The notes under the pieces: generated by a model
Told to the model about the DNA's origin: nothing
Databases searched by the model: none
The model's input: the letters and a program-made list of their open reading frames with translations, nothing else
Shown: one piece after another, positions 28,205 through 62,063 of the stretch
Position numbering within the stretch: position 1 is the first letter of the stretch
How the letters are laid out: every line of letters starts with the position of its first letter
From: Microbacterium sp. BLY
Lineage (GTDB): Bacteria; Actinomycetota; Actinomycetes; Actinomycetales; Microbacteriaceae
Direction: 5' to 3'
Length of the DNA: 64,000 bases
Assembly: GCF_017939615.1 (NCBI RefSeq)
Contig: NZ_JAGKSR010000001.1
Coordinates: forward strand, 1,674,001-1,738,000
Made by a program: the position numbers and the translations under genes

Positions 28205-29275
28205 ATGGCCTCCGAACGCGTGACCCTGACCGTCGCCGACACCGACGGAGAGCGCGAGGTCGCGCTCTCCAGCCCGAACCGGGTGGTGTGGCCCGACCTC
28301 GGCATCACCAAGGCCGAGCTCGCGGAGTATGTGCAGTTGGTCTCCGGACCGTTCCTGTCGGCGAACGGCAACCGCCCCGTGTCCCTGGAACGCTTCCGCG
28401 ACGGCGTGGGAACAGCCGGCGGACCGCGCCCGGAGGGCTTCTTCTCGAAGAACCCGCCGAAGGGCACCCCGGACTTCGTCGATGCGGTCACCGTCACCTA
28501 CAACAGCGGCCGGCGGCATCCGCAGATCGTGTTGAACCGCACGAGTGCGATCGTGTGGGCGGTGCAGATGAACACGATCGTCTTCCACCCCTGGGCCTCT
28601 CTCGCGACCGACTCCGACAATCCCGTGGAACTGCGCATCGACCTGGACCCGCAGCCGGGCACGGGCTTCGCCGAGGCCGTGCCCGCGGCGCACGCCCTGC
28701 GTGAGGTGCTGCGCGAGGCGGGCCTGGAGGCCTTCGCCAAGACGAGCGGCAACCGGGGCCTGCATGTGTTCGCGCCGATCGAGCCGACCCACGAGTTCCT
28801 CGACGTGCGGCACGCGGTGATCGCCGCCGGCCGGGAGCTGGAACGGCGGATGCCGGACCGGGTGACGACGAACTGGTGGAAGGAGGAGCGCGGCGAGCGC
28901 CTCTTCGTGGACTTCAACCAGGCGAACCGCGACCGCACGATGGCCGGCGCCTACAGTCCGCGTGCCCTTCCGGGGGCGACCGTCGCGACTCCCGTGCACT
29001 GGGAGGAGCTCGACGACCTCGACCCGCGTGTCTTCACCGTGCGGAGCGTCCCGCAGCGCCTCGAAGAGGTCGGCGACCCGTGGGCTGACATGCAGGCGAA
29101 GCCCGGGCGCATCGACACGCTCCTGGAGTGGTGGGAGCGCGACACGGCGGACGGCCTCGGAGAGCTGCCCTTCCCGCCGGAGTTCCCGAAGATGCCGGGC
29201 GAGCCCCCGCGGGTCCAGCCCAGCAAGAAGAACGCCGCGAACTGGGACGCCGACGGCAACCCCGTCGACGACTGA
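28205..29275 (+). CDS. LigD-type polymerase/primase domain protein (NHEJ)
   Basis: 356 aa archaeo-eukaryotic primase fold. Metal-binding D146 and D148 in a RIDLDPQPG motif; SGNRGLHVFAP and VDFNQANRDRTM motifs are typical of LigD polymerase domains. In end joining it fills gaps with ribonucleotides. It stands alone, whereas in mycobacteria it is fused to ligase and nuclease domains. The ATP-dependent ligase gene is convergent and 6 bp away. No Ku gene is in the window. Confidence 0.9.
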   Translation: MASERVTLTVADTDGEREVALSSPNRVVWPDLGITKAELAEYVQLVSGPFLSANGNRPVSLERFRDGVGTAGGPRPEGFFSKNPPKGTPDFVDAVTVTYNSGRRHPQIVLNRTSAIVWAVQMNTIVFHPWASLATDSDNPVELRIDLDPQPGTGFAEAVPAAHALREVLREAGLEAFAKTSGNRGLHVFAPIEPTHEFLDVRHAVIAAGRELERRMPDRVTTNWWKEERGERLFVDFNQANRDRTMAGAYSPRALPGATVATPVHWEELDDLDPRVFTVRSVPQRLEEVGDPWADMQAKPGRIDTLLEWWERDTADGLGELPFPPEFPKMPGEPPRVQPSKKNAANWDADGNPVDD

Positions 29276-29281
29276 GAGCGC

Positions 29282-30325
29282 TCAGCTCAGGACGTCGGCG
29301 AGGTCGTAGCCGGCGACGGTGTCGAGCTGGTCGTAGGTGCAGGAGCGGGCGTCGCGGTCCGGACGCCACCGCTCGAACTGCACCGTGTGGCGGAAGCGGG
29401 CGCCCTCCAGCTGGTCGTACCGCACCTCCAGCACCCGCTCGGGGCGCAGCCGCACGAACGAGACGTCCTTCGACCCGCTGAACCGCGATCGCTCACCCTC
29501 GCCGGTCACGGCTGCGCCGTCCTCGTCGCGCTCGACCAGCGGCGCGAGCTCCTGCACGAGCTGCTTCCGCTTCGCGTCGCTCCACGCCGCCACGCCCCCG
29601 ACCTGGCGGAGGGTCCCGTCCGTGTCGTAGAGCCCCACGAGCAGCGATCCGACCCCGGAGCCGGACTTGTGGATGCGGTAGCCGAGGGCGACGACGTCGG
29701 CGGTCCGGGCGTGCTTGACCTTGAACAGGGTGCGCTTCCCCGGGGCATACGGCTGCGCCAGCGGCTTCGCCACGACGCCGTCGAGCCCCGCTCCCTCGAA
29801 CTCCTCGAGCCAGCGGAGGGCCGCGTCGCGATCCCGGGTGGTCCTCGTCAGGTGCAGGGGGTGCTCGATCGAGTCCAGAAGCGTCTCCAGACGGGCGCGT
29901 CGCGTCTCGAACGACTCGCTCTGCAGGTCGTCCTCCCCGGACGCGAGGAGGTCGAAGGCGATGAACATCGCGGGGGTCTCTGCGGCGAGCTTCGCGACCC
30001 GGGAGGCCGCCGGGTGGATGCGCTGGCTCAGCGCCTCCCAGTCCAGCCGCTGCGCCCCGCGCGGGCCGGTCGCGACGACGATCTCCCCGTCGAGCAGGCA
30101 GGGGACGGGGAGCAGCTGCGGGATCGCGTCGACCAGCTCGGGGAAGTACCGCGTGAGGGGTTTCGCACCTCGGGAGCCGATCTCGACCGTCTCACCGTCC
30201 CAGGCGATGAGGCCGCGGAAGCCGTCCCACTTCGGCTCGAACAGCAGGCCACCCGGCGTCTTGTCGGGGTCGGGGACGGTGGCGACGGCCTTGGCGAGCA
30301 TGGGAGCCGGGATCTCGTAGCGCAT
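29282..30325 (-). CDS. ATP-dependent DNA ligase (LigD/LigC-like)
   Basis: 347 aa. Adenylation motif EPKWDGFR with nucleophile K32, GSRGAKPLT (motif Ia region), LDGEIV (motif III), EGLDGVVAKP-like GLDGVVAKP (motif IV) and KVKHARTADVV (motif V), then an OB-fold. Seals nicks or breaks with ATP. Beside the stand-alone LigD polymerase, so probably the ligation half of non-homologous end joining. Start ATG 30325, possibly leaderless. Confidence 0.9.
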   Translation of the reverse strand: MRYEIPAPMLAKAVATVPDPDKTPGGLLFEPKWDGFRGLIAWDGETVEIGSRGAKPLTRYFPELVDAIPQLLPVPCLLDGEIVVATGPRGAQRLDWEALSQRIHPAASRVAKLAAETPAMFIAFDLLASGEDDLQSESFETRRARLETLLDSIEHPLHLTRTTRDRDAALRWLEEFEGAGLDGVVAKPLAQPYAPGKRTLFKVKHARTADVVALGYRIHKSGSGVGSLLVGLYDTDGTLRQVGGVAAWSDAKRKQLVQELAPLVERDEDGAAVTGEGERSRFSGSKDVSFVRLRPERVLEVRYDQLEGARFRHTVQFERWRPDRDARSCTYDQLDTVAGYDLADVLS

Positions 30326-54116: not shown

Positions 54117-54521
54117 TCAGCCGATGACGGCGAGGCCGTCGATCTCGACGAGCATCTCCTCGCGGGGGAGCCCGGTGAAGACGGTGGTGCGGGCCGGCAG
54201 GACGCCGCTGGTCGTGTGGGCCTCCACGAACGCGCCGTAGGCCTCGTTCATGATCGGGAAGTCGTCGCGCGTGGTCAGGTAGACGCGCAGCATCACGACG
54301 TCGTCGAAGGTGGCCCCCGAGGCCTCCACGATGGCCTTGACGTTCTCGAGTGTGCGGGTGGTCTGCGCCGCGACGTCGCCGGGGTGGAGGTACTCGTTGG
54401 TCTGCGGGTCGACGGGTCCCTGGCCGGAGACCTGGACGATCGGGCCCTTGCGGACGCCCTGCGAGAAGGTGTGCGCGGGAGCGGGGGCGGCGTCGGTGGA
54501 AACTCGTGTCTTCGCGGTCAT
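54117..54521 (-). CDS. RidA family enamine/imine deaminase
   Basis: 134 aa Rid-fold protein: VSGQGPVDP, QTTRTLENVKAIVEASGATFDDVVMLRVYLT (with the arginine that binds substrate carboxylate in RidA), and a LPREEMLVEIDGLAV ending. RidA proteins hydrolyse reactive 2-aminoacrylate and related imines made by PLP dehydratases. It is divergent from a D-amino-acid deaminase-like PLP enzyme with only 25 bp between the start codons, strongly suggesting it cleans up after that enzyme. Leaderless start (TAGGCT, 6 nt). Confidence 0.9.
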   Translation of the reverse strand: MTAKTRVSTDAAPAPAHTFSQGVRKGPIVQVSGQGPVDPQTNEYLHPGDVAAQTTRTLENVKAIVEASGATFDDVVMLRVYLTTRDDFPIMNEAYGAFVEAHTTSGVLPARTTVFTGLPREEMLVEIDGLAVIG

Positions 54522-54527
54522 GCCGCC

Positions 54528-54540
54528 AGCCTAGTAGCCT
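54528..54540. promoter_or_regulatory. Back-to-back leaderless promoters for ridA and the deaminase
   Basis: Minus-strand TAGGCT (54533-54528) and plus-strand TAGCCT (54535-54540) are separated by one base, and each is followed by exactly 6 nt and an ATG (54521 and 54547). The -35 of each must lie in the other's coding sequence. Confidence 0.55.
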
Positions 54541-54560
54541 TGTTAGATGCCTCTACAAAT
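54541..54560. promoter_or_regulatory. Inverted repeat over the deaminase start codon
   Basis: TTGTTAGA (54540-54547) and TCTACAAA (54552-54559) form an imperfect inverted repeat. TTGTTAG also occurs in the ROK operator at 59083-59104 on the minus strand. Possibly a second ROK site. Confidence 0.3.
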
Positions 54561-55764
54561 TCCGGATCCCGTTCTCGGCGCCTGGGCGAAGGGGTTCCCG
54601 GCGCGTGCCGCGGGGCTGCGTCTGTCGGAGGTCGCCGGAGCCGGCCTGCGTCTGTCCGATCTCCGCACCCCGGTGCTCACGGTGCACGCCGATGCGCTCG
54701 CGCACAACGAGGCCACCGTGTTCGGCTGGGCCGAGCGGAGGGGCGTCCGCCTCGCCCCGCACGGCAAGACCACCATGGCACCCGCGTTGTGGCAGCGCCT
54801 GCTCGACGCCGGCGCCTGGGGTCTCTCCGTCGCGACGCCGTGGCAGGCCCGGGTGGCGGTGGACGCGGGCGTCCCCACGGTGCTCATCGCCAACGGCGTG
54901 ACCGACGGCGCGGCCGCCAGGGAGCTGGGCGCGCTGCTCGCCGCCGACGAGGGTCTGCGGATCCTCTGCGGGGCCGATTCGCTCGCCGGTGTCGCGATCC
55001 TCGCCGAGGCGCTCGCCGACGCCCCGCGTCCGCTGGACGTCCTCGTGGAGCTCGGCGGCGCCCAGGGGCGCACGGGGGCGCGGACCGTCGCGGAAGGCGA
55101 GAGCATCGCCGCGGCGATCACGGCCGCTCCCGGTCTCCGCCTCGCCGGGGTGACCGGCTATGAGGGGCCGTTCGGCCCCGACCGGTCCGCGGCCTCGGTG
55201 GCGGCGGTCGACGGCTTCCTCGCCACCCTCGGCGAGCTGCACCGCCGCCTGCAGTACCCCGATGGTCTCCGCCCCGTGCTGAGCGCGGGCGGGAGCTCGT
55301 TCCCCGACCGCGCCGCCGCGGTCCTCGGTGCCGCCGCCGGAGAAGCGGAGGTCGTCCTGCGCTCCGGGGCCTTCCAGATCCACGACGACGGCTTCTACTC
55401 CCGCATGTCGCCGTTCGGGCCGGCGACGGACACCGCGCCGCTGCGCTCCGCGATGCACGCGTGGGCGCGCGTCGTGTCCCAGCCGGAGCCCGGGCTCGCG
55501 CTGCTCGACGCCGGGCGCCGGGATGTGCCGTTCGACATCGATCTCCCCGTACCGCAGTCCGTCGCCGGGGCGATCACGGCGCTCAACGACCAGCACGCCT
55601 TCCTCCGACCCGCCGACGGCGCGACCGTCGCGGTGGGCGAGGTCGTCCGCCTCGGGCTGTCGCACCCCTGCACCGCGTTCGACAAGTGGCGGGTCGTCGC
55701 GGTGATCGACGACCCCGACGCCGCCGACCCGCGCGTGATCGATGCGGTGGCGACATGCTTCTGA
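54547..55764 (+). CDS. D-serine dehydratase/D-threonine aldolase-like PLP enzyme (D-amino-acid deaminase)
   Basis: 405 aa of the alanine-racemase-N/DSD family. PLP lysine K74 in an APHGKTTM motif; C-terminal zinc site H373 and C375 in a SHPCTAFDKW motif, as in eukaryotic-type D-serine dehydratase. Converts D-amino acids (D-serine-like) to keto acids and ammonia through an enamine. Divergent RidA fits that chemistry. The last 10 bases overlap the amidohydrolase-hexosaminidase gene, so the two are translationally coupled. Exact substrate unproven. Confidence 0.87.
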   Translation: MPLQIPDPVLGAWAKGFPARAAGLRLSEVAGAGLRLSDLRTPVLTVHADALAHNEATVFGWAERRGVRLAPHGKTTMAPALWQRLLDAGAWGLSVATPWQARVAVDAGVPTVLIANGVTDGAAARELGALLAADEGLRILCGADSLAGVAILAEALADAPRPLDVLVELGGAQGRTGARTVAEGESIAAAITAAPGLRLAGVTGYEGPFGPDRSAASVAAVDGFLATLGELHRRLQYPDGLRPVLSAGGSSFPDRAAAVLGAAAGEAEVVLRSGAFQIHDDGFYSRMSPFGPATDTAPLRSAMHAWARVVSQPEPGLALLDAGRRDVPFDIDLPVPQSVAGAITALNDQHAFLRPADGATVAVGEVVRLGLSHPCTAFDKWRVVAVIDDPDAADPRVIDAVATCF

Positions 55765-58700
55765 GCGCCGAGAAGGCGGCGGCAGGCGGTGTGCGCGTCT
55801 ATCGGCGTGCCACCGTCGTCGACGGCACCGGGGCCGCGCGGTACATCGCGGACGTCGCCGTCGAGGGCGCCAGGGTCGTCGCGATCCGCCGCGAGGGCGA
55901 CACCGACGGTCTCGTGGTGCCCGACGGCGCGATCGAGGTGGACGCGTCCGACCTCGTGCTGGCCCCCGGGTTCATCGACATGCACGCGCACAGCGATCTC
56001 GCGGTGCTCGACGGCGCGGCGCACGACGCCAAGATCCGCCAGGGCGTGACCACCGAGGTGCTCGGCCAGGACGGTCTGGGGTACGCACCGCTGGACGAGG
56101 CCACCGCCGCCGTCATCCCCGCGCAGATCGCCGGGTGGAACGGTCTGCCGGACGAGGTGCCCTGGCGGTCGATGGACGACCTGCTGACGGCCATCGACCG
56201 CGTCACCGTGGCCAACGCCGCCGTGCTCGTGCCGCAGGGCAACCTCCGGATGATGGTGGTCGGGCACGAGAACCGCGCGGCCACGACCGCGGAGATCGCC
56301 GCGATGGCCGACCTCCTCGGGCAGGCGCTCGACGCCGGCGCATTCGGCATGTCGAGCGGACTCACCTACACCCCGGGGATGTACGCCGACACGGCCGAGC
56401 TGGAGGCGCTCTGCCGCGTGGTCGCCGAGCGCGGAGGCTACTGGGCGCCGCACACGCGCAGCTACGGCGGCGCCGCGTTGGACGCGTACCGCGAGGCGAT
56501 CGAGATCGGCCGCCGCACCGGGTGCGCGGTCCACCTCACGCACGCGACCATGAACTTCGCCCCCAACCGCGGGCGCGCCGCCGAGCTGCTGGCTCTCGTG
56601 GACGAGGCCGTGGCGGACGGGGTCGACGTGACGCTGGACACCTACCCCTACCTGCCGGGCGCGACCACGCTGTCCGCGCTGCTGCCGAGCCGGCTCGCGG
56701 CCACCGGCGACCTCCTCGGCGCCCTCGCCGCCCTCGACGCCGACGGACGCGAGGCGGTCAGGGTCGAGCTGGAGGAGATCGGCTGCGACGGCTTCCACGG
56801 GGAGGTCGCCGACTGGACGGCGATCCAGATCTCGGGCACCGCGCATCCCGCGCTGGCCGGACTCGTCGGGCGCACGGTCGCCGACATCGCCGCGGACTCC
56901 GGGCGGCGCGCCGTCGACGTGGTGATCGACACGATCCTCCTCGACGCCGGAGCCACAGGCGTGCTCATGCACATCGGCGACGAGGACAACGTCCGCGCGA
57001 TCATGCGGCATCCGCGGCACTCCGGCGGCAGCGACGGGATCCTCATCGGCGCGCGTCCACACCCCCGTGGCCGCGGCACCTTCCCCCGCTACCTCGGCCA
57101 CTATGTCCGCGAGCTCGGCGTGCTGAGCCTGGAGGAGGCCGTGCGCCATCTCTCGGGCACCCCGGCCGCCCGGCTCGGTGTGGACCGCGGCGATGCCCCG
57201 CGCGGCGTCCTCCGCGAGGGCGCGACGGCCGATCTCGTGCTGTTCGACCCCCGGACCATCGCCGCCGGCGCCACCTTCGACGACCCGCACGGTCGCCCGC
57301 AGGGGGTGCGCGAAGTGCTCGTCGGCGGCGTGCCGGTGGTCCTCGACGGCGAGCCGACGGGGGTCGTCGCCGGGCGGGCCCTGCGGATGCCGCCCTCGGC
57401 CGCCCGGGCGACCGTCCCGCACATCGCGGCCCGGATCGATCCGCAGGCGATGCCGTTCCGCTGGACCCCCGCGACCCCGATCACGGCCCCGCCCGCGTTG
57501 TCCGCCGCCGTCGCCCGTCTCGGCGGCGGTGCCGGCGACGCCGCCCTCCCGGCCATTCGCCTGCTCGTCGATCCGGAACTCGGCGTCACCGCGGCGGCGG
57601 AGGGACGTCGGGGGGAGGAGGCGTTCCGCGTGACCGTGACCTCCGCGGGGATCGAGATCGTCGGGGCGACCCCGGCCGGCGTGTTCCGTGGCGCCACCAC
57701 GCTCCGTCAGCTCCGCGACCCCGATCTCGGCCCCACGGCGCCCGCCGTGATCCCCGCCGGGCAGTGGGAGGGTGCTCCCGCCTCCTCCTGGCGGGGAGCG
57801 ATGCTCGACGTGGCGCGGCACATCCGCCCGGCGGAGGACGTCCGCCGCCTCATCGACCTGCTGGCCGATCACCACCTCAACATCCTCCATCTGCACCTGA
57901 CGGACGACCAGGGATGGCGTTTCGAGGTGCCCGGCTACCCGCGTCTCACCGAGATCGGGGCGCATCGGTCGGCGACGCAGCGTGGCCACGGGCCGGAGGC
58001 GACCGTCGAGCCCGGGGTGCACGAGGGGTTCTACACCACCGCCGAGCTGCGCGATCTCGTCCGGTACGCGTCCGACCGCTTCGTGACCCTCGTGCCCGAG
58101 GTCGAGCTTCCCGGACACGTGCAGGCGGCACTCGCCGCGTATCCGGACCTCGGCAACACCGACGTCGCGGAACCTGCGGACGGCCCGTGGGAGCGCTTCG
58201 GCGTGAACGCGCGCACGCTCGCCCCGACCCCGGAGGCGCTGGCGTTCGGCCGTGCCGCCATCGACGCGCTGTGCGAGGTGTTCCCGTCGGCATGGATCGG
58301 GATCGGGGGCGACGAGGTGCCCGTGACGGAGTGGGCCGCGAGTCCGGCCGCGGCCGTGCGGATGCAGGAGCTCGGACTCGCCACGCCGCACGATGTGCAG
58401 CCGTGGTTCACGGCGCAGTTCGTCGCCCACGTGCGGGCGCGGGGGAGGACGGCGCTCGCGTGGGACGAGGTGCTGGAGGGCGACGTCCCCGACGGGGTGC
58501 GCATCCTCGCCTGGCGGGGTCCGGTCGCGATGGGCGCAGCGCTGCGGCGCGGGATCCCGGTCGTCGCCTGCCCGGACCTCGAGGTCTACCTCGACTACCC
58601 GCAGTCGGAATCCGCCGAGGAGCCGATCCGGGTCGGTCCGCCGCTCACGCTCGAGCGTGCCTACTCGTTCCGGGTCGTCGACGGCGCGGTGGGCGGCCAG

Positions 58701-59027
58701 GCGAACGTCTGGACCGAGCACCTGCCGACGCGGGACCGGGTGGACTTCGCGATGTTCCCCCGCCTGGCGGCGATCGCCGAGCGGCTGTGGGACGGGGGAG
58801 ACCCCGCGCCGTTCGCCGACTTCGCGCGTCGTCTGCCCACGCACCTGCGGCGGCTGGCGGCGGCGGGCGTGCGGTATCGTCCGCTGGACGGCCCGACACC
58901 GGCGCAGCGGCGTCCGGGTGTCCCCGGTAAGCCGATGACGGTGGAGACGAGGGAGGGGATCGTCGCCGGGCTGGTCGAGCGGCTGCGCCGGATGGCGCAG
59001 GACCAGGCGGCACCGCCGTCCCTCTGA
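55755..59027 (+). CDS. Fusion of N-acyl-D-amino-acid deacylase-type amidohydrolase and GH20 beta-N-acetylhexosaminidase
   Basis: 1090 aa in one uninterrupted frame. Residues 1-544: amidohydrolase of the D-aminoacylase family (APGFIDMHAHSD with metal ligands H77 and H79; HTRSYG; GGSDGILIGARPHPRGRGTFPR; ends VLVGGVPVVLDGEP...GRALR). The usual metal-bridging cysteine (GNCG) is replaced by GQDG (D106). Residues 545-1090: GH20, with GH20b subdomain, GAMLDVARH, LHLTDDQGWRFE and the catalytic pair D853-E854 in GIGGDEVP. The junction is a methionine (M545, base 57387), so each half equals a complete enzyme. No signal peptide, so cytoplasmic. Overlaps the deaminase by 10 bp. Confidence 0.9.
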   Translation: MLLSAEKAAAGGVRVYRRATVVDGTGAARYIADVAVEGARVVAIRREGDTDGLVVPDGAIEVDASDLVLAPGFIDMHAHSDLAVLDGAAHDAKIRQGVTTEVLGQDGLGYAPLDEATAAVIPAQIAGWNGLPDEVPWRSMDDLLTAIDRVTVANAAVLVPQGNLRMMVVGHENRAATTAEIAAMADLLGQALDAGAFGMSSGLTYTPGMYADTAELEALCRVVAERGGYWAPHTRSYGGAALDAYREAIEIGRRTGCAVHLTHATMNFAPNRGRAAELLALVDEAVADGVDVTLDTYPYLPGATTLSALLPSRLAATGDLLGALAALDADGREAVRVELEEIGCDGFHGEVADWTAIQISGTAHPALAGLVGRTVADIAADSGRRAVDVVIDTILLDAGATGVLMHIGDEDNVRAIMRHPRHSGGSDGILIGARPHPRGRGTFPRYLGHYVRELGVLSLEEAVRHLSGTPAARLGVDRGDAPRGVLREGATADLVLFDPRTIAAGATFDDPHGRPQGVREVLVGGVPVVLDGEPTGVVAGRALRMPPSAARATVPHIAARIDPQAMPFRWTPATPITAPPALSAAVARLGGGAGDAALPAIRLLVDPELGVTAAAEGRRGEEAFRVTVTSAGIEIVGATPAGVFRGATTLRQLRDPDLGPTAPAVIPAGQWEGAPASSWRGAMLDVARHIRPAEDVRRLIDLLADHHLNILHLHLTDDQGWRFEVPGYPRLTEIGAHRSATQRGHGPEATVEPGVHEGFYTTAELRDLVRYASDRFVTLVPEVELPGHVQAALAAYPDLGNTDVAEPADGPWERFGVNARTLAPTPEALAFGRAAIDALCEVFPSAWIGIGGDEVPVTEWAASPAAAVRMQELGLATPHDVQPWFTAQFVAHVRARGRTALAWDEVLEGDVPDGVRILAWRGPVAMGAALRRGIPVVACPDLEVYLDYPQSESAEEPIRVGPPLTLERAYSFRVVDGAVGGQANVWTEHLPTRDRVDFAMFPRLAAIAERLWDGGDPAPFADFARRLPTHLRRLAAAGVRYRPLDGPTPAQRRPGVPGKPMTVETREGIVAGLVERLRRMAQDQAAPPSL

Positions 59028-59070: not shown

Positions 59071-59099
59071 TTGCACAATTCCTGTTCGTAAGGTCTACT
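59071..59099 (+). promoter_or_regulatory. Promoter of the ROK-kinase-nagB operon
   Basis: TTGCAC (59071-59076), 17-bp spacer, TCTACT (59094-59099); ATG 59107 follows 7 nt later, so the transcript is probably leaderless. Confidence 0.45.
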
Positions 59100-59103
59100 A
59101 ACA
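59083..59103. promoter_or_regulatory. ROK autoregulatory operator candidate
   Basis: Inverted repeat TGTT-N-GTA (59083-59090) and TAC-N-AACA (59096-59103) over the promoter spacer and -10 box, directly before the ROK repressor gene. A bound repressor would block RNA polymerase. Confidence 0.5.
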
Positions 59104-59106
59104 AAC

Positions 59107-60294
59107 ATGTCCGTTTCGGATGATCAGCGCCCGGCGGCGACGACAGACTTCGTCGCCGCGAACGCGCACGCCTTCGGCCCCGCGCGGCATCTCCGTTCGC
59201 GCACCAAGGTGCTCCCCGAGCACGCCCGCGGCCACAACCGCGCGCTCGTGCTCCAGACGCTCTACCACTCCGGCGCCATGAGCCGCGCCGACCTCTCCCG
59301 CGAGACCGGCCTCACCCGGGTGACGATCTCCGACCTGGTGGCCGAGTTCATCGCCGACGGCATCGTCGTCGAGATCGGGGTGCGCGAGGCGGTCGGTCCC
59401 GGCAAGCCCCCGATCCTCATCGACATCGACCGCGTGGGGCACCAGATCATCGGTCTCGATCTGTCCGGCCCGACCGCCTTCGAGGGCGCCGTCCTCAGCC
59501 TCGACGGCGACGTGCTGGAGCGCCGCGAGGTGCCGCGGCCGGAGACGCCGGACGGCGATGCTGCCTACGACGCCCTGCGGGGCCTCGCGCAGACCCTCGT
59601 CGAGATCGCGACGCAGCCCGTCCTCGGCGTCGGCATCGGCACGCCGGGCGTCGTGCGCCCCGACGGCGTCGTGCTCAGCTCGCCGAACCTCGGCTGGACC
59701 GACTTCCCGCTGGAGGCGAAGCTCAGCGCAGACCTCGACCTCCCGGTGCTCGCCCGCAACGACGCCAACGCCGCCGTGCTCGCCGAGTACACCTTCGGCG
59801 AGGCGGAGGCCGACTTCATGCTCATCAAGATCGGTCGCGGCGTCGGCGCCGGCCTGATCACCGGCAGCCAGCCGCTGCTGGGCAGCCGGTTCGCAGCGGG
59901 GGAGATCGGCCACGTCGTGGTCGGCACCGACGGCGGACCCCGCTGCGCCTGCGGCAAGATCGGCTGCCTCGAGGCCTGGCTGAGCGTGAGCCGTCTGCGG
60001 CAGGCGATCGAGGCCGACCCCGCGGCGCGCGACGAGATCCTCCGCGATTCCGGCACCCGCATGGCGATCGCCATCGCCCCGATCGTGGCCGCGCTGGACC
60101 TCTCCGAGGTCGTGCTCTCCGGCCCGGCGGAGCTGCTGGACGGCACGCTCATCGACGCCGCCGTCGAGACCCTCCACGCCCGTACGCTCGAGGGCGTCTT
60201 CGAGGACGTCCTGGTGCGCCTCACCCATCAGGACGACATCGTGCTCCGCGGTGCCGCGGTGATGGTGTTGTCCGGGCAGCTGGGTGTGTCATGA
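59107..60294 (+). CDS. ROK family transcriptional repressor (NagC-like)
   Basis: 395 aa. Winged helix at about 40-90 (RALVLQTLYHSGAMSRADLSRETGLTRVTISDLV), then a ROK sugar-kinase fold. The phosphate loop of true kinases (DxGGTK) is LDLSGPT here, so it should not phosphorylate sugar; the zinc motif CACGKIGCLE (about 281-290) is kept and N218-D219 resemble the sugar contact. It likely senses GlcNAc or a phosphorylated amino sugar. Opens the promoter unit driving the kinase and nagB; the operator overlaps its own promoter. Confidence 0.9.
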   Translation: MSVSDDQRPAATTDFVAANAHAFGPARHLRSRTKVLPEHARGHNRALVLQTLYHSGAMSRADLSRETGLTRVTISDLVAEFIADGIVVEIGVREAVGPGKPPILIDIDRVGHQIIGLDLSGPTAFEGAVLSLDGDVLERREVPRPETPDGDAAYDALRGLAQTLVEIATQPVLGVGIGTPGVVRPDGVVLSSPNLGWTDFPLEAKLSADLDLPVLARNDANAAVLAEYTFGEAEADFMLIKIGRGVGAGLITGSQPLLGSRFAAGEIGHVVVGTDGGPRCACGKIGCLEAWLSVSRLRQAIEADPAARDEILRDSGTRMAIAIAPIVAALDLSEVVLSGPAELLDGTLIDAAVETLHARTLEGVFEDVLVRLTHQDDIVLRGAAVMVLSGQLGVS

Positions 60295-60325
60295 CCCCGA
60301 TGCGCACGACCGGGAACGGCACCCG

Positions 60326-61291
60326 ATGACCGTTCCCGCCCCCGCCGACCTCGCCGGTCGGCCGATTCGCGTGGGCCTGGACGTCGGAGGCACCAAGATC
60401 GACGCCGTCGCTGTCGACCCCGCCGGCACCATCCTCGGGCGACTGCGGCGACCGACGGGATGGGGGGAGGACGCGGTCGTCGAGAGCATCGTCGCGACCG
60501 TCGTCGCGCTCGCCGACGAGATCGGCGTGCCGCTGTCCGCGGTCGGCTCCGCCGGCATCGGCATCCCCGGTCTCGTGGACGCGGAAGCCGGTCGGGTCCT
60601 CCACGCGGTGAACCTCGGCGTGGAGTCGCTCGACCTGGCGACACGCGCCGCGCAGGCGCTGGGCATCCCGTTCCGGGTGGAGAACGACGTCAAGGCCGCC
60701 GCATTGGGCGCCGCCGTGCTGAGCGACGTCGCCGGCTCGATGGCGTACCTCAACCTCGGCACCGGGGTCGCCGCCGGCATCGTCATCGACGGGCGCATCT
60801 GGCGCGGTGCGCGGGGGACCGCCGGCGAGGTCGGGCACCTCTCCGTCGACCCGCGCGGACGTCTGTGCGGGTGCGGCCAGCGCGGCTGCGTGGAGACCTT
60901 CTGCGGGGGAGGTGCGCTCGCGAAGGCGTGGGGGCGCCCCGGCGCCCTGCCCGTCAAGGACATCGTCGACGCCGCCGACGCGGGAGACCCCCAGGCGCTC
61001 GCACTGCGCGCCGACCTCTTCTTCGGGGCGGCCGCGGCGGTGCGGGTGCTCGTGCTGTCGGCCGACGTCGAGACGGTGGTCATCGGCGGTGGGCTCACGG
61101 CTCTCGGCACCCGCCTCGCGGACGGCGTCCGCGAGGCCCTCCATGCGGGCGCCGAGGCGTCACCGTTCCTGAGGTCGCTGCGTCTGGATGAGAGAATCGA
61201 ACTGCTCCCCGCGGGTTCCCCCGCCGCCGCTTTCGGCGCCGCTCTGGTGGGCGCATCCATTTCTGAGAAGGAGATCGTTCCGCATGGCTGA
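60326..61291 (+). CDS. ROK family sugar kinase (probable N-acetylglucosamine/amino-sugar kinase)
   Basis: 321 aa. Phosphate-binding DVGGTK (19-24), catalytic D121 in an ENDVKAAA motif, zinc site C-x-C-x4-C (CGCGQRGCVE near 182-191) with a preceding GHLS histidine. These make it an active ROK kinase, unlike its upstream neighbour. Substrate inferred from nagB downstream and the hexosaminidase upstream. ATG 60326 preferred (31 nt after the ROK regulator); GTG 60284 would add 14 residues. Overlaps nagB by 8 bp. Confidence 0.87.
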   Translation: MTVPAPADLAGRPIRVGLDVGGTKIDAVAVDPAGTILGRLRRPTGWGEDAVVESIVATVVALADEIGVPLSAVGSAGIGIPGLVDAEAGRVLHAVNLGVESLDLATRAAQALGIPFRVENDVKAAALGAAVLSDVAGSMAYLNLGTGVAAGIVIDGRIWRGARGTAGEVGHLSVDPRGRLCGCGQRGCVETFCGGGALAKAWGRPGALPVKDIVDAADAGDPQALALRADLFFGAAAAVRVLVLSADVETVVIGGGLTALGTRLADGVREALHAGAEASPFLRSLRLDERIELLPAGSPAAAFGAALVGASISEKEIVPHG

Positions 61292-62063
61292 GGTCGTCAT
61301 CGTCGAGAATGCCGAGGCCGCCGGCGCCCTGGTCGCCACCGAGATCGTCGAGCTCATCGACCGCCGTCCGGATGCGGTGCTCGGCCTCGCGACCGGCTCC
61401 ACCCCGCTGCCCGTCTACCAGGCTCTCCGCAGCCGCCTCGCCGGGCGCGACGTCTCGCAGGTGCGCGGATTCGCACTCGACGAGTACGTGGGCATCGATC
61501 CCTCCCACCCGGAGAGCTACCGCTCCGTCATCACCCGCGAGGTGGTCGAGCCGCTCGGTCTCGACCCGCAGCGCATCCATGTGCCGAACGGCGCGGAGGC
61601 GACGATCCAGCACGCCGGTGAGGACTACGACGCCGCCATCGCCGCGGCCGGCGGCGTCGACCTGCAGATCCTCGGCATCGGCACGGACGGCCACATCGGG
61701 TTCAACGAGCCGGGGTCATCCTTCGCCTCGCGGACCCGCGTGAAGACGCTCACGGAGCAGACGCGCGAGGACAACGCCCGCTTCTTCGACTCCATCGACG
61801 ACGTCCCGATGCACTGCATCACCCAGGGGCTCGGCACCATCCTGGAGGCCCGTCACCTCGTGCTCCTGGCCTTCGGTGCGGGCAAGGCCGAGGCCGTCGC
61901 GGCAGCGGTCGAGGGACCGCTCACCGCGCTGCTGCCCGGGTCGGCGATCCAGCTCCACCCGCACGCGACCATCGTCGTCGACGAGGCCGCGGCCTCGAAG
62001 CTCCAGCTCGCGGACTACTACCGGTACACCTTCGCGAACAAGCCGGCCTGGCAGGGCATCTGA
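61284..62063 (+). CDS. nagB: Glucosamine-6-phosphate deaminase
   Basis: 259 aa. LGLATGSTPLPVYQAL phosphate site, D66 in FALDEYVG and the GIGTDGHIGFNEP ring-opening/catalytic block. Converts glucosamine-6-phosphate to fructose-6-phosphate and ammonia, feeding amino sugar into glycolysis. ATG 61284 with GAAGGAG upstream, overlapping the kinase stop. nagA, needed to deacetylate GlcNAc-6-P first, is absent from the window. Confidence 0.96.
   Translation: MAEVVIVENAEAAGALVATEIVELIDRRPDAVLGLATGSTPLPVYQALRSRLAGRDVSQVRGFALDEYVGIDPSHPESYRSVITREVVEPLGLDPQRIHVPNGAEATIQHAGEDYDAAIAAAGGVDLQILGIGTDGHIGFNEPGSSFASRTRVKTLTEQTREDNARFFDSIDDVPMHCITQGLGTILEARHLVLLAFGAGKAEAVAAAVEGPLTALLPGSAIQLHPHATIVVDEAAASKLQLADYYRYTFANKPAWQGI

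Follow-up and report, generated by a model that had tools for sequence, protein, structure and literature searches.

A route for the bacterial use of chitooligosaccharides oxidised at C1 is encoded by the ong gene cluster of Pseudoalteromonas prydzensis. According to extracts of its description (Jiang et al., 2022; PMC9537276), OngA is a glycoside hydrolase family 20 (GH20) enzyme that splits GlcNAc-GlcNAc1A (N-acetylglucosamine linked to N-acetyl-D-glucosaminate), OngB is a D-aminoacylase-like deacetylase of GlcNAc1A, OngC makes 2-keto-3-deoxygluconate (KDG) from D-glucosaminate and OngD is a RidA protein, with a KDG kinase completing the set. The same extracts define the cluster by at least four co-occurring homologues of the genes of strain ACAM 620 at more than 30% identity, and place the complete pathway in Gammaproteobacteria plus one Betaproteobacterium; two Aeromonas strains searched for it had no close OngB or OngC, according to extracts of that report (PMC11653859). 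The structure of OngB has been solved (Wang et al., 2025; extracts of PMC12017989). Here we describe a gene in a 64 000-nucleotide stretch of the genome of Microbacterium sp. BLY (contig NZ_JAGKSR010000001.1, positions 1,674,001–1,738,000; hereafter the window) in which a D-aminoacylase-fold amidohydrolase and a predicted GH20 β-N-acetylhexosaminidase are joined in one protein of 1090 residues, next to a deaminase. Computation established the fusion itself, how far it is conserved and the selection acting on it, together with the folds, the gene neighbourhoods and the co-occurrence with the deaminase. On balance we favour a role for the fusion as a cytoplasmic bifunctional enzyme for C1-oxidised chitooligosaccharides, with GlcNAc-GlcNAc1A, a β-GlcNAc carried on an N-acetyl D-amino acid, as its predicted substrate.

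The two enzymes lie in a single uninterrupted frame whose start codon overlaps the 3′ end of the deaminase gene (ATGCTTCTGA). Pfam models over their cut-offs place Amidohydro_3 at residues 61–529 (E 1.4e-23), Glyco_hydro_20b at 561–663 (37.5 bits, cut-off 26.1) and Glyco_hydro_20 at 678–1013 (E 2.7e-85; 287.2 bits, cut-off 22.3), and AlphaFold2, run on an alignment of 32 sequences, models two enzymes with confidence. The original prediction that this is a genuine in-frame fusion is borne out: among the matches listed, a single match covers both halves in 85 of 366 genomes of the genus, and the outcome that was to speak against it, a conserved stop ahead of M545 that splits every orthologue, is contradicted by these 85 genomes. 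No stop is listed in 82 of the 85 spanning matches, and in the other three (G083, G113 and G298; loci L148, L128 and L129) it follows the GH20 part and leaves the frame across the junction unbroken; these three were considered as unfused ancestors and ruled out, their loci proving fused when the sequence was examined. Three of the 85 matches (G226, G269 and G286) are incomplete at one end, and the count leaves aside G211, whose contig ends at the junction, G028, whose GH20 half is deleted, the genomes with a decayed first half, and G250, which has indels in five of the 11 genes matched at the fusion locus. The genome tallies for the fusion, for the deaminase and for lytic polysaccharide monooxygenases (LPMOs) of family AA10 were compiled by hand and ignore the relatedness of the genomes; those for the fusion and the deaminase rest on the matches listed, their weak end excluded.

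Over five pairs of sequences the ratio of nonsynonymous to synonymous substitution rates (dN/dS) is 0.10–0.15 in the amidohydrolase half, 0.16–0.26 in the 35 codons of the linker, 0.21–0.31 in the GH20 N-terminal domain and 0.08–0.13 in the GH20 catalytic part, and purifying selection thus acts on both halves. The stop-free junction in 85 genomes, the low dN/dS in both halves and the conserved linker exclude an assembly error as the source of the fusion. The source genome (3.24 Mb) is 99.99% complete. An independent translation start at M545 is likewise rejected, since this column of a MAFFT alignment of 59 distinct sequences (intact fusions for the most part, with a few that are decayed) holds Met in 52 and Leu, Lys, His or Arg in seven, making a separate start of the second half impossible there in some relatives. 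Loci L064 and L127 carry frameshifts across several of their genes, and these assemblies are therefore not taken as evidence for broken fusions.

From these features and the surrounding genes we infer the substrate, the order of the steps, their location and their regulation as follows. The GH20 half would cleave the non-reducing-end GlcNAc, for example from GlcNAc-GlcNAc1A, and the amidohydrolase half would then deacetylate the freed GlcNAc1A. The OngC-like deaminase, aided by RidA, would convert D-glucosaminate to KDG, which a KDG kinase and a 2-keto-3-deoxy-6-phosphogluconate (KDPG) aldolase encoded elsewhere in the genome would take onward; the freed GlcNAc would pass through the ROK kinase, NagA (also encoded elsewhere) and NagB. 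The ROK repressor next door would probably govern both the fusion operon and an oligosaccharide ATP-binding cassette (ABC) importer of family 5. No signal peptide is seen by inspection at the N terminus of the fusion, and hydropathy over 19 residues does not exceed 1.1 for any start within the first 60 residues; both steps should therefore be cytoplasmic, and so the oligosaccharide would have to be imported.

Compared with the ong cluster, four of the five enzyme types adjoin here, with the same predicted chemistry as far as KDG, and KDG-kinase-like genes lie in the clusters of many relatives. There, OngA and OngB are two proteins, the former predicted to be periplasmic in the extracts cited above, whereas here they correspond to one protein without a signal peptide; the regulator is of MurR/RpiR type there, and of ROK type here and IclR type in relatives; and the present bacteria are Actinobacteria, for which we propose an ABC importer. 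We regard the chemistry as known, and the architecture, the bacterial group and the changed active site as new. A substrate carrying both a β-GlcNAc and an N-acyl D-amino acid had been predicted at the outset in general form, and GlcNAc-GlcNAc1A, as it appears in extracts of PMC9537276 and PMC12017989, is a compound of exactly this type.

In structural alignments (VIA-align), residues 2–547 of the model match PpOngB with bound GlcNAc1A (9kb3) with Z 53.1 and a root-mean-square deviation (rmsd) of 2.3 over 474 aligned residues. This is the top score, but it lies within one Z unit of the Klebsiella pneumoniae D-acylase 9g5m and of the D-aminoacylases 3gip and 1m7j (Z 52.5 for 1m7j), and a D-aminoacylase-like barrel and β-domain are both present. 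The likeness to the two PpOngB structures (9kb1 and 9kb3) extends across the whole half (Z 52–53, 33–34% identity); identity to the ACAM 620 protein in the structural alignment is 33%, this half being the sole protein compared with that strain. The residues of OngB were mapped through the alignment to AfDam and the numbering of PMC12017989, and were surveyed in the 121 distinct relatives with a match at E 1e-60 or better over at least 400 aligned residues, the fused clade being the 58 sequences at 64% identity or more. The active site of the first half comprises H77, H79, D106 (at the position of a Zn-ligand Cys), H233, H263, D427 and R434. The metal ligands His222 and His252 are both conserved, the catalytic Asp368 corresponds to D427 and is Asp in all 121 relatives, the equivalent of Tyr285 is kept, and position 379 is Arg in 48 and Lys in 10 of the 58.

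Several features nevertheless weigh against an OngB-like activity. The sequence match to the D-aminoacylases 3gip and 1m7j (1e-70) is better than that to PpOngB (1e-56). The Zn ligand Cys97 is replaced by Asp in 121 of 121 relatives; in the fused clade Lys254, which binds the carboxylate of the substrate, is replaced by Thr in 58 of 58 (T265 here), Glu226 is Tyr, and Ser292 is Thr, again in all 58, as it is in D-aminoacylases, and Ser291 is Ala in the first half. The Zn-ligand Cys is retained in more distant relatives (Frigoribacterium and the genome's own paralogue, L002), and the Frigoribacterium amidohydrolase retains Cys, Lys and Glu alike, so that the fused clade belongs to a separate group and its specificity is not readable from OngB. 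Because Cys97 is Asp and Lys254 is Thr, we do not class the first half as an OngB; it is the gene neighbourhood that suggests an OngB-like action. The best NCBIfam model for this half is a general amidohydrolase, below cut-off, and no curated model searched (Pfam, NCBIfam) names the Asp-substituted deacetylase group. With the D-aminoacylases AfDam (1m7j) and BbDam (3gip) the half shares its fold, its best PDB sequence matches and Thr at 292; Cys and Lys are replaced here, however, and the gene neighbourhood is of a sugar-acid type. The description of this half as a D-aminoacylase type is right as to the fold and finds no support in the strict sense, the metal-ligand Cys being Asp and the substrate Lys being Thr.

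The second half is predicted, from its domains and motif, to be a GH20 β-N-acetylhexosaminidase. Its best PDB sequence match (E 1e-112) is 3rcn, the GH20 enzyme of Arthrobacter aurescens, a free-standing protein that is also the best match by fold (residues 547–1068; Z 50.7, rmsd 2.2, 497 aligned). The catalytic pair D853–E854 lies in a GGDE motif (58311–58316) that is invariant in a 22-row alignment of relatives. HJ5Nag of Microbacterium sp. HJ5, the single GH20 enzyme of Microbacterium for which we found a description, belongs to the same genus and glycosidase family, but extracts of its description (PMC5387316) present a secreted protein of 535 residues with a signal peptide and no amidohydrolase part.

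The gene neighbourhoods of unfused relatives of the amidohydrolase half together suit the breakdown of a 2-amino aldonic acid by way of KDG. In 34 loci, picked for spread and not at random (20 drawn from the 74 matching genomes of the class, and 14 from those of the family), we find nearby genes for OngC in 28, RidA in 29, PfkB in 20, IclR in 20, GntP in 10 and a lactonase-type protein in three. The PfkB protein of locus L114 has a KDG kinase as its best PDB match (3e-41) and as its best NCBIfam model, below cut-off, and the best model for the IclR protein of the same locus is KdgR, also below cut-off; the GntP protein of an Amycolatopsis locus (L100) is over the cut-off for a gluconate:H+ symporter and adjoins a lactonase-type gene. 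Neighbours resembling a KDG kinase, KdgR and a gluconate permease speak for an aldonic acid as the substrate and not for an ordinary D-amino acid. On the other side, an inositol-pathway kinase model fits the L114 PfkB almost equally well, the second-best model for the L114 IclR is BhcR (below cut-off), the deaminase beside the fusion has BhcC as its sole NCBIfam match, far below cut-off, and PfkB, IclR and GntP are not adjacent to the fusion in the window.

It is in this light that an ordinary role in D-amino acid salvage has to be weighed, in which the first half would be an N-acyl-D-amino-acid deacylase feeding a D-serine-deaminase-like neighbour, and the link to GH20 would serve the use of cell-wall or glycopeptide debris. 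The nearest solved structures by sequence are indeed D-aminoacylases, the best PDB match of the deaminase is D-serine deaminase (3gwq, E 4e-58), and the GntP-family permeases include a D-serine transporter, the match to the DsdX model being below cut-off. But such a role would not call for the KDG-kinase-like and KdgR-like genes beside 20 of the 34 relatives, and the Lys and metal ligands that are strictly conserved in D-aminoacylases, according to extracts of PMC12017989, are partly replaced here; we therefore consider it unlikely. A second alternative retains the downstream logic and changes the substrate, the deacetylase acting on another N-acetylated sugar acid or lactone such as a different hexosaminate or a cell-wall acid. 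Changed substrate-binding residues and the lactonase-type genes, including that of the Amycolatopsis relative, would be in keeping with it. KDG-type downstream genes suit the gluco configuration best, however, and chitin is favoured by GH20, NagB and an importer whose binding protein matches one for chitin oligosaccharides, so that we hold this second alternative to be improbable.

A further clue comes from what is kept and lost together with each half. In L121, L123 and L126 the barrel and the adjacent deaminase are lost, while GH20, the ROK regulator, the kinase and NagB are kept; conversely, L119 has an amidohydrolase without GH20 or NagB, accompanied by deaminase, RidA, IclR and PfkB. Because these loci keep the GlcNAc genes and the deaminase-route genes respectively, we read the amidohydrolase as tied to the deaminase route and the GH20 enzyme as tied to that of GlcNAc, the fusion linking the two routes. 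This partition argues against the first half being a substitute for NagA that deacetylates GlcNAc or its 6-phosphate, in a sequence from GH20 by way of GlcNAc and glucosamine to the ROK kinase and NagB. That proposal would account for an operon with a kinase and NagB but without nagA; nonetheless, some 8 kb downstream from the fusion there is a NagA gene (C1:1740810–1741919; 0.4 bits over the NCBIfam cut-off), and together with the partners kept or lost with each half this makes a replacement of NagA very unlikely. The partition has its exceptions: L117 has PfkB and no deaminase near, fused loci such as L120, L040, L062 and L075 lack an adjacent deaminase, and a deaminase of the family is present elsewhere in nine of the 10 genomes with a decayed first half, so that losing the barrel and the adjacent deaminase is not the same as losing the family. 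In the decayed loci L122, L124 and L125 the kinase and NagB are not near either.

A second module, consisting of an amidohydrolase (36–38% identical), a deaminase and IclR, often with RidA or PfkB, is present in L142, L143, L147 and L149; it sits in genomes whose fused locus has lost the deaminase or the barrel, and may have come to fill the role. In L144, L145 and L146 the deaminase is present with no second amidohydrolase near. Where the deaminase gene is missing, in L040, L044, L053 and L062, the initial codons of that gene seem to run in frame into the fusion, which would now begin with the deaminase start region.

An OngC-family deaminase (E 1e-40 or better) is found in 84 of the 85 fused genomes as compared with 70 of the 281 others. 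The fused genome that has none, G237, is 79% complete. Against the favoured role of the fusion, 15 of the 85 have no deaminase at the level of an orthologue (at least 61% identity), 14 of them having another copy elsewhere that is about 50% identical. The source of oxidised chitin is a further difficulty. The source genome has no AA10 LPMO (PF03067; other LPMO families were not searched), so that the oxidised substrate would have to come from others, and AA10 LPMOs occur in 15 of the 366 genomes of the genus. Fused genomes carry them more often than the others do (11 of 86, with G211 added, versus 4 of 280; Fisher test 4e-5), and G191 and G299, two of the four AA10 genomes without an intact fusion, both carry a decayed one. 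Dependence on an LPMO of its own is not seen in the source genome, and 75 of the 86 fused genomes have no AA10 LPMO.

The fusion appears to be a single event within Microbacterium. A search of 349 genomes of the family (seven of them of the same genus) gave no match from another genus across both halves at E 1e-80 or better, and in none of 60 amidohydrolase loci outside the genus (49 genomes, 11 of them represented twice) are both parts in one frame. In a tree built from 55 selected GH20 rows, a branch with a support of 100/100 separates the 41 sequences that are fused or decayed from the others, and decayed or lost first halves occur at three separate places; one fusion followed by at least three losses is thus the simplest account. 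A long branch formed by Agromyces (L092 and two others) joins the tree at the fused clade, and the placement of those outgroups is unsure. The suggestion that the fusion arose by loss of a stop codon between overlapping genes finds no support, because none of the loci examined holds an unfused relative in which the genes stand in this order: in Frigoribacterium (L098 and L107) the GH20 gene precedes that of the amidohydrolase, with RidA and deaminase near, and in the Microbacterium loci L114–L116 the two genes are separate and convergent. The gene overlap that does exist involves the deaminase gene and the start of the fusion, at the opposite end.

Decay of the fusion follows a recurrent pattern. 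Nine of the 10 decayed loci retain the flanks of the amidohydrolase, mainly the β-domain, in frame before GH20, with the barrel mostly or wholly gone; the remnant is recognisable in L121–L126, L154 and L156 and more weakly in L130 (two flanks, 1e-6 and 6e-5), and no amidohydrolase remnant is recognisable in L155. Between L072 and L073 the remnant evolves faster (dN/dS 0.35) than the GH20 part (0.15). An AlphaFold model of the decayed fusion L074 is weaker than that of the intact protein (predicted local distance difference test, pLDDT, 74.9; predicted template modelling score, pTM, 0.70); the stretch replacing the barrel is disordered in it, and it is only suggestive as a picture of this state. 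In L121–L126, L130, L154 and L156 the leftover β-domain may possibly now be a structural part of the glycosidase. The opposite loss, with the amidohydrolase intact and the GH20 half deleted, is seen in L131 (G028). Such losses, of the barrel at three places in the tree with GH20 kept and of GH20 in G028, indicate that the link between the halves is not indispensable, and they are what could be said for a fusion that is fortuitous or an artefact of assembly, its halves acting separately through a link without a role. We regard this as extremely improbable in view of the junction and dN/dS data given above; the long conservation argues against chance, while it falls short of proving channelling between the active sites.

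A wider proposal, which we put forward more tentatively and as possible rather than probable, is that Actinobacteria (Amycolatopsis, Microbacteriaceae and others) possess a widespread and undescribed pathway for oxidised chitin with a separate, Asp-for-Cys family of deacetylases, that the Microbacterium fusion passes GlcNAc1A between its active sites, and that the leftover β-domain perhaps has a structural role. We found no report of the fusion, or of the pathway in Actinobacteria, among the open-licence full texts listed in our literature searches. If the favoured role of the fusion is right, oxidised chitin would be eaten far beyond the Gammaproteobacteria of the described pathway, by consumers that include species lacking their own AA10 LPMO and living on the products of others. 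The fusion would be nature's own indication that the glycosidase and deacetylase steps belong together, and offers one protein in which cleavage of the glycoside and removal of the acetyl group can be tested on a single substrate; it also flags a group of deacetylases with a changed active site.

Table 1. Features of the fusion locus, in window coordinates.
Feature	Position	Strand	Evidence
RidA-family protein, 134 residues, OngD-like by position, divergent from the deaminase	54117–54521	−	PF01042, E 3e-29
Regulatory-looking conserved block between RidA and deaminase, running into the deaminase start	54522–54575		TTGTTAG at 54540
OngC-like pyridoxal-phosphate D-amino-acid deaminase, 405 residues, putative D-glucosaminate deaminase	54547–55764	+	PF14031 and PF01168 over cut-off
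Fusion protein, 1090 residues	55755–59027	+	AlphaFold2 model, pLDDT 89.4, pTM 0.89
First half, residues 1–544, D-aminoacylase-fold amidohydrolase, putative GlcNAc1A deacetylase	55755–57386	+	
Linker around the junction, PGRALRMPPPAHRATVPRIDARIDP-like, M545 at 57387	57375–57455	+	59 distinct sequences aligned
Second half, predicted GH20 β-N-acetylhexosaminidase with N-terminal GH20b domain	57387–59024	+	Pfam; matches to 3rcn
Palindrome CCTGTTCGTAAGGTCTACTAACAAA directly before the ROK regulator start, predicted ROK operator	59081–59105	+	CTAACAA in 20 of 21 loci
ROK-family transcription regulator, NagC/Mlc-like	59107–60294	+	PF00480, E 7e-44; MarR_2 and NCBIfam below cut-off
ROK sugar kinase, putative GlcNAc kinase	60284–61291	+	PF00480, E 4e-55; NCBIfam sugar-kinase models below cut-off
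NagB glucosamine-6-phosphate deaminase (listed open reading frame from 61188)	61284–62063	+	NF001684 and TIGR00502 over cut-off

The genes on either side of the fusion are listed in Table 1. RidA adjoins the deaminase or the fusion in most of the Microbacterium loci examined. The palindrome before the ROK regulator is probably its operator. The pattern has one match in the window and none in 100 shuffles, and at three mismatches or fewer it recurs just once elsewhere in the genome, in front of a family-5 ABC importer. The motif in the conserved block between RidA and the deaminase resembles one half-site of the palindrome and is kept in 21 of 22 loci (it is missing in L075), and an equal similarity is reached by four of 3000 random stretches of the window; this site is too diverged for the palindrome pattern scan to recover.

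At the importer (L232:1673–7073; C1:1917134 of the same genome) a perfect inverted repeat, TTTGTTAG...CTAACAAA, lies upstream at L232:1535–1559. The binding protein of the importer matches 1zty, a chitin-oligosaccharide-binding protein of Vibrio, at 1e-45, level with 8i5j, the other family-5 proteins among its matches being peptide or nickel binders. Elsewhere in the genome there are a KDG-kinase-like PfkB (C1:1553716) that is 53% identical to the L114 kinase, two KHG/KDPG-type aldolases over the PF01081 cut-off and one GntP gene. A MurR/RpiR-type regulator, a KDG-kinase-like PfkB and another family-5 binding protein stand together at L152:6812–10475 (C1 near 1553000), and this gene group is a possible second part of the same pathway. 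Ten open reading frames from three other regions were also scanned, three of them without a match. At 28205–30325 of the window, a LigD-type primase-polymerase (plus strand) and an ATP-dependent ligase (minus strand) converge, as ordinary genes of end-joining repair.

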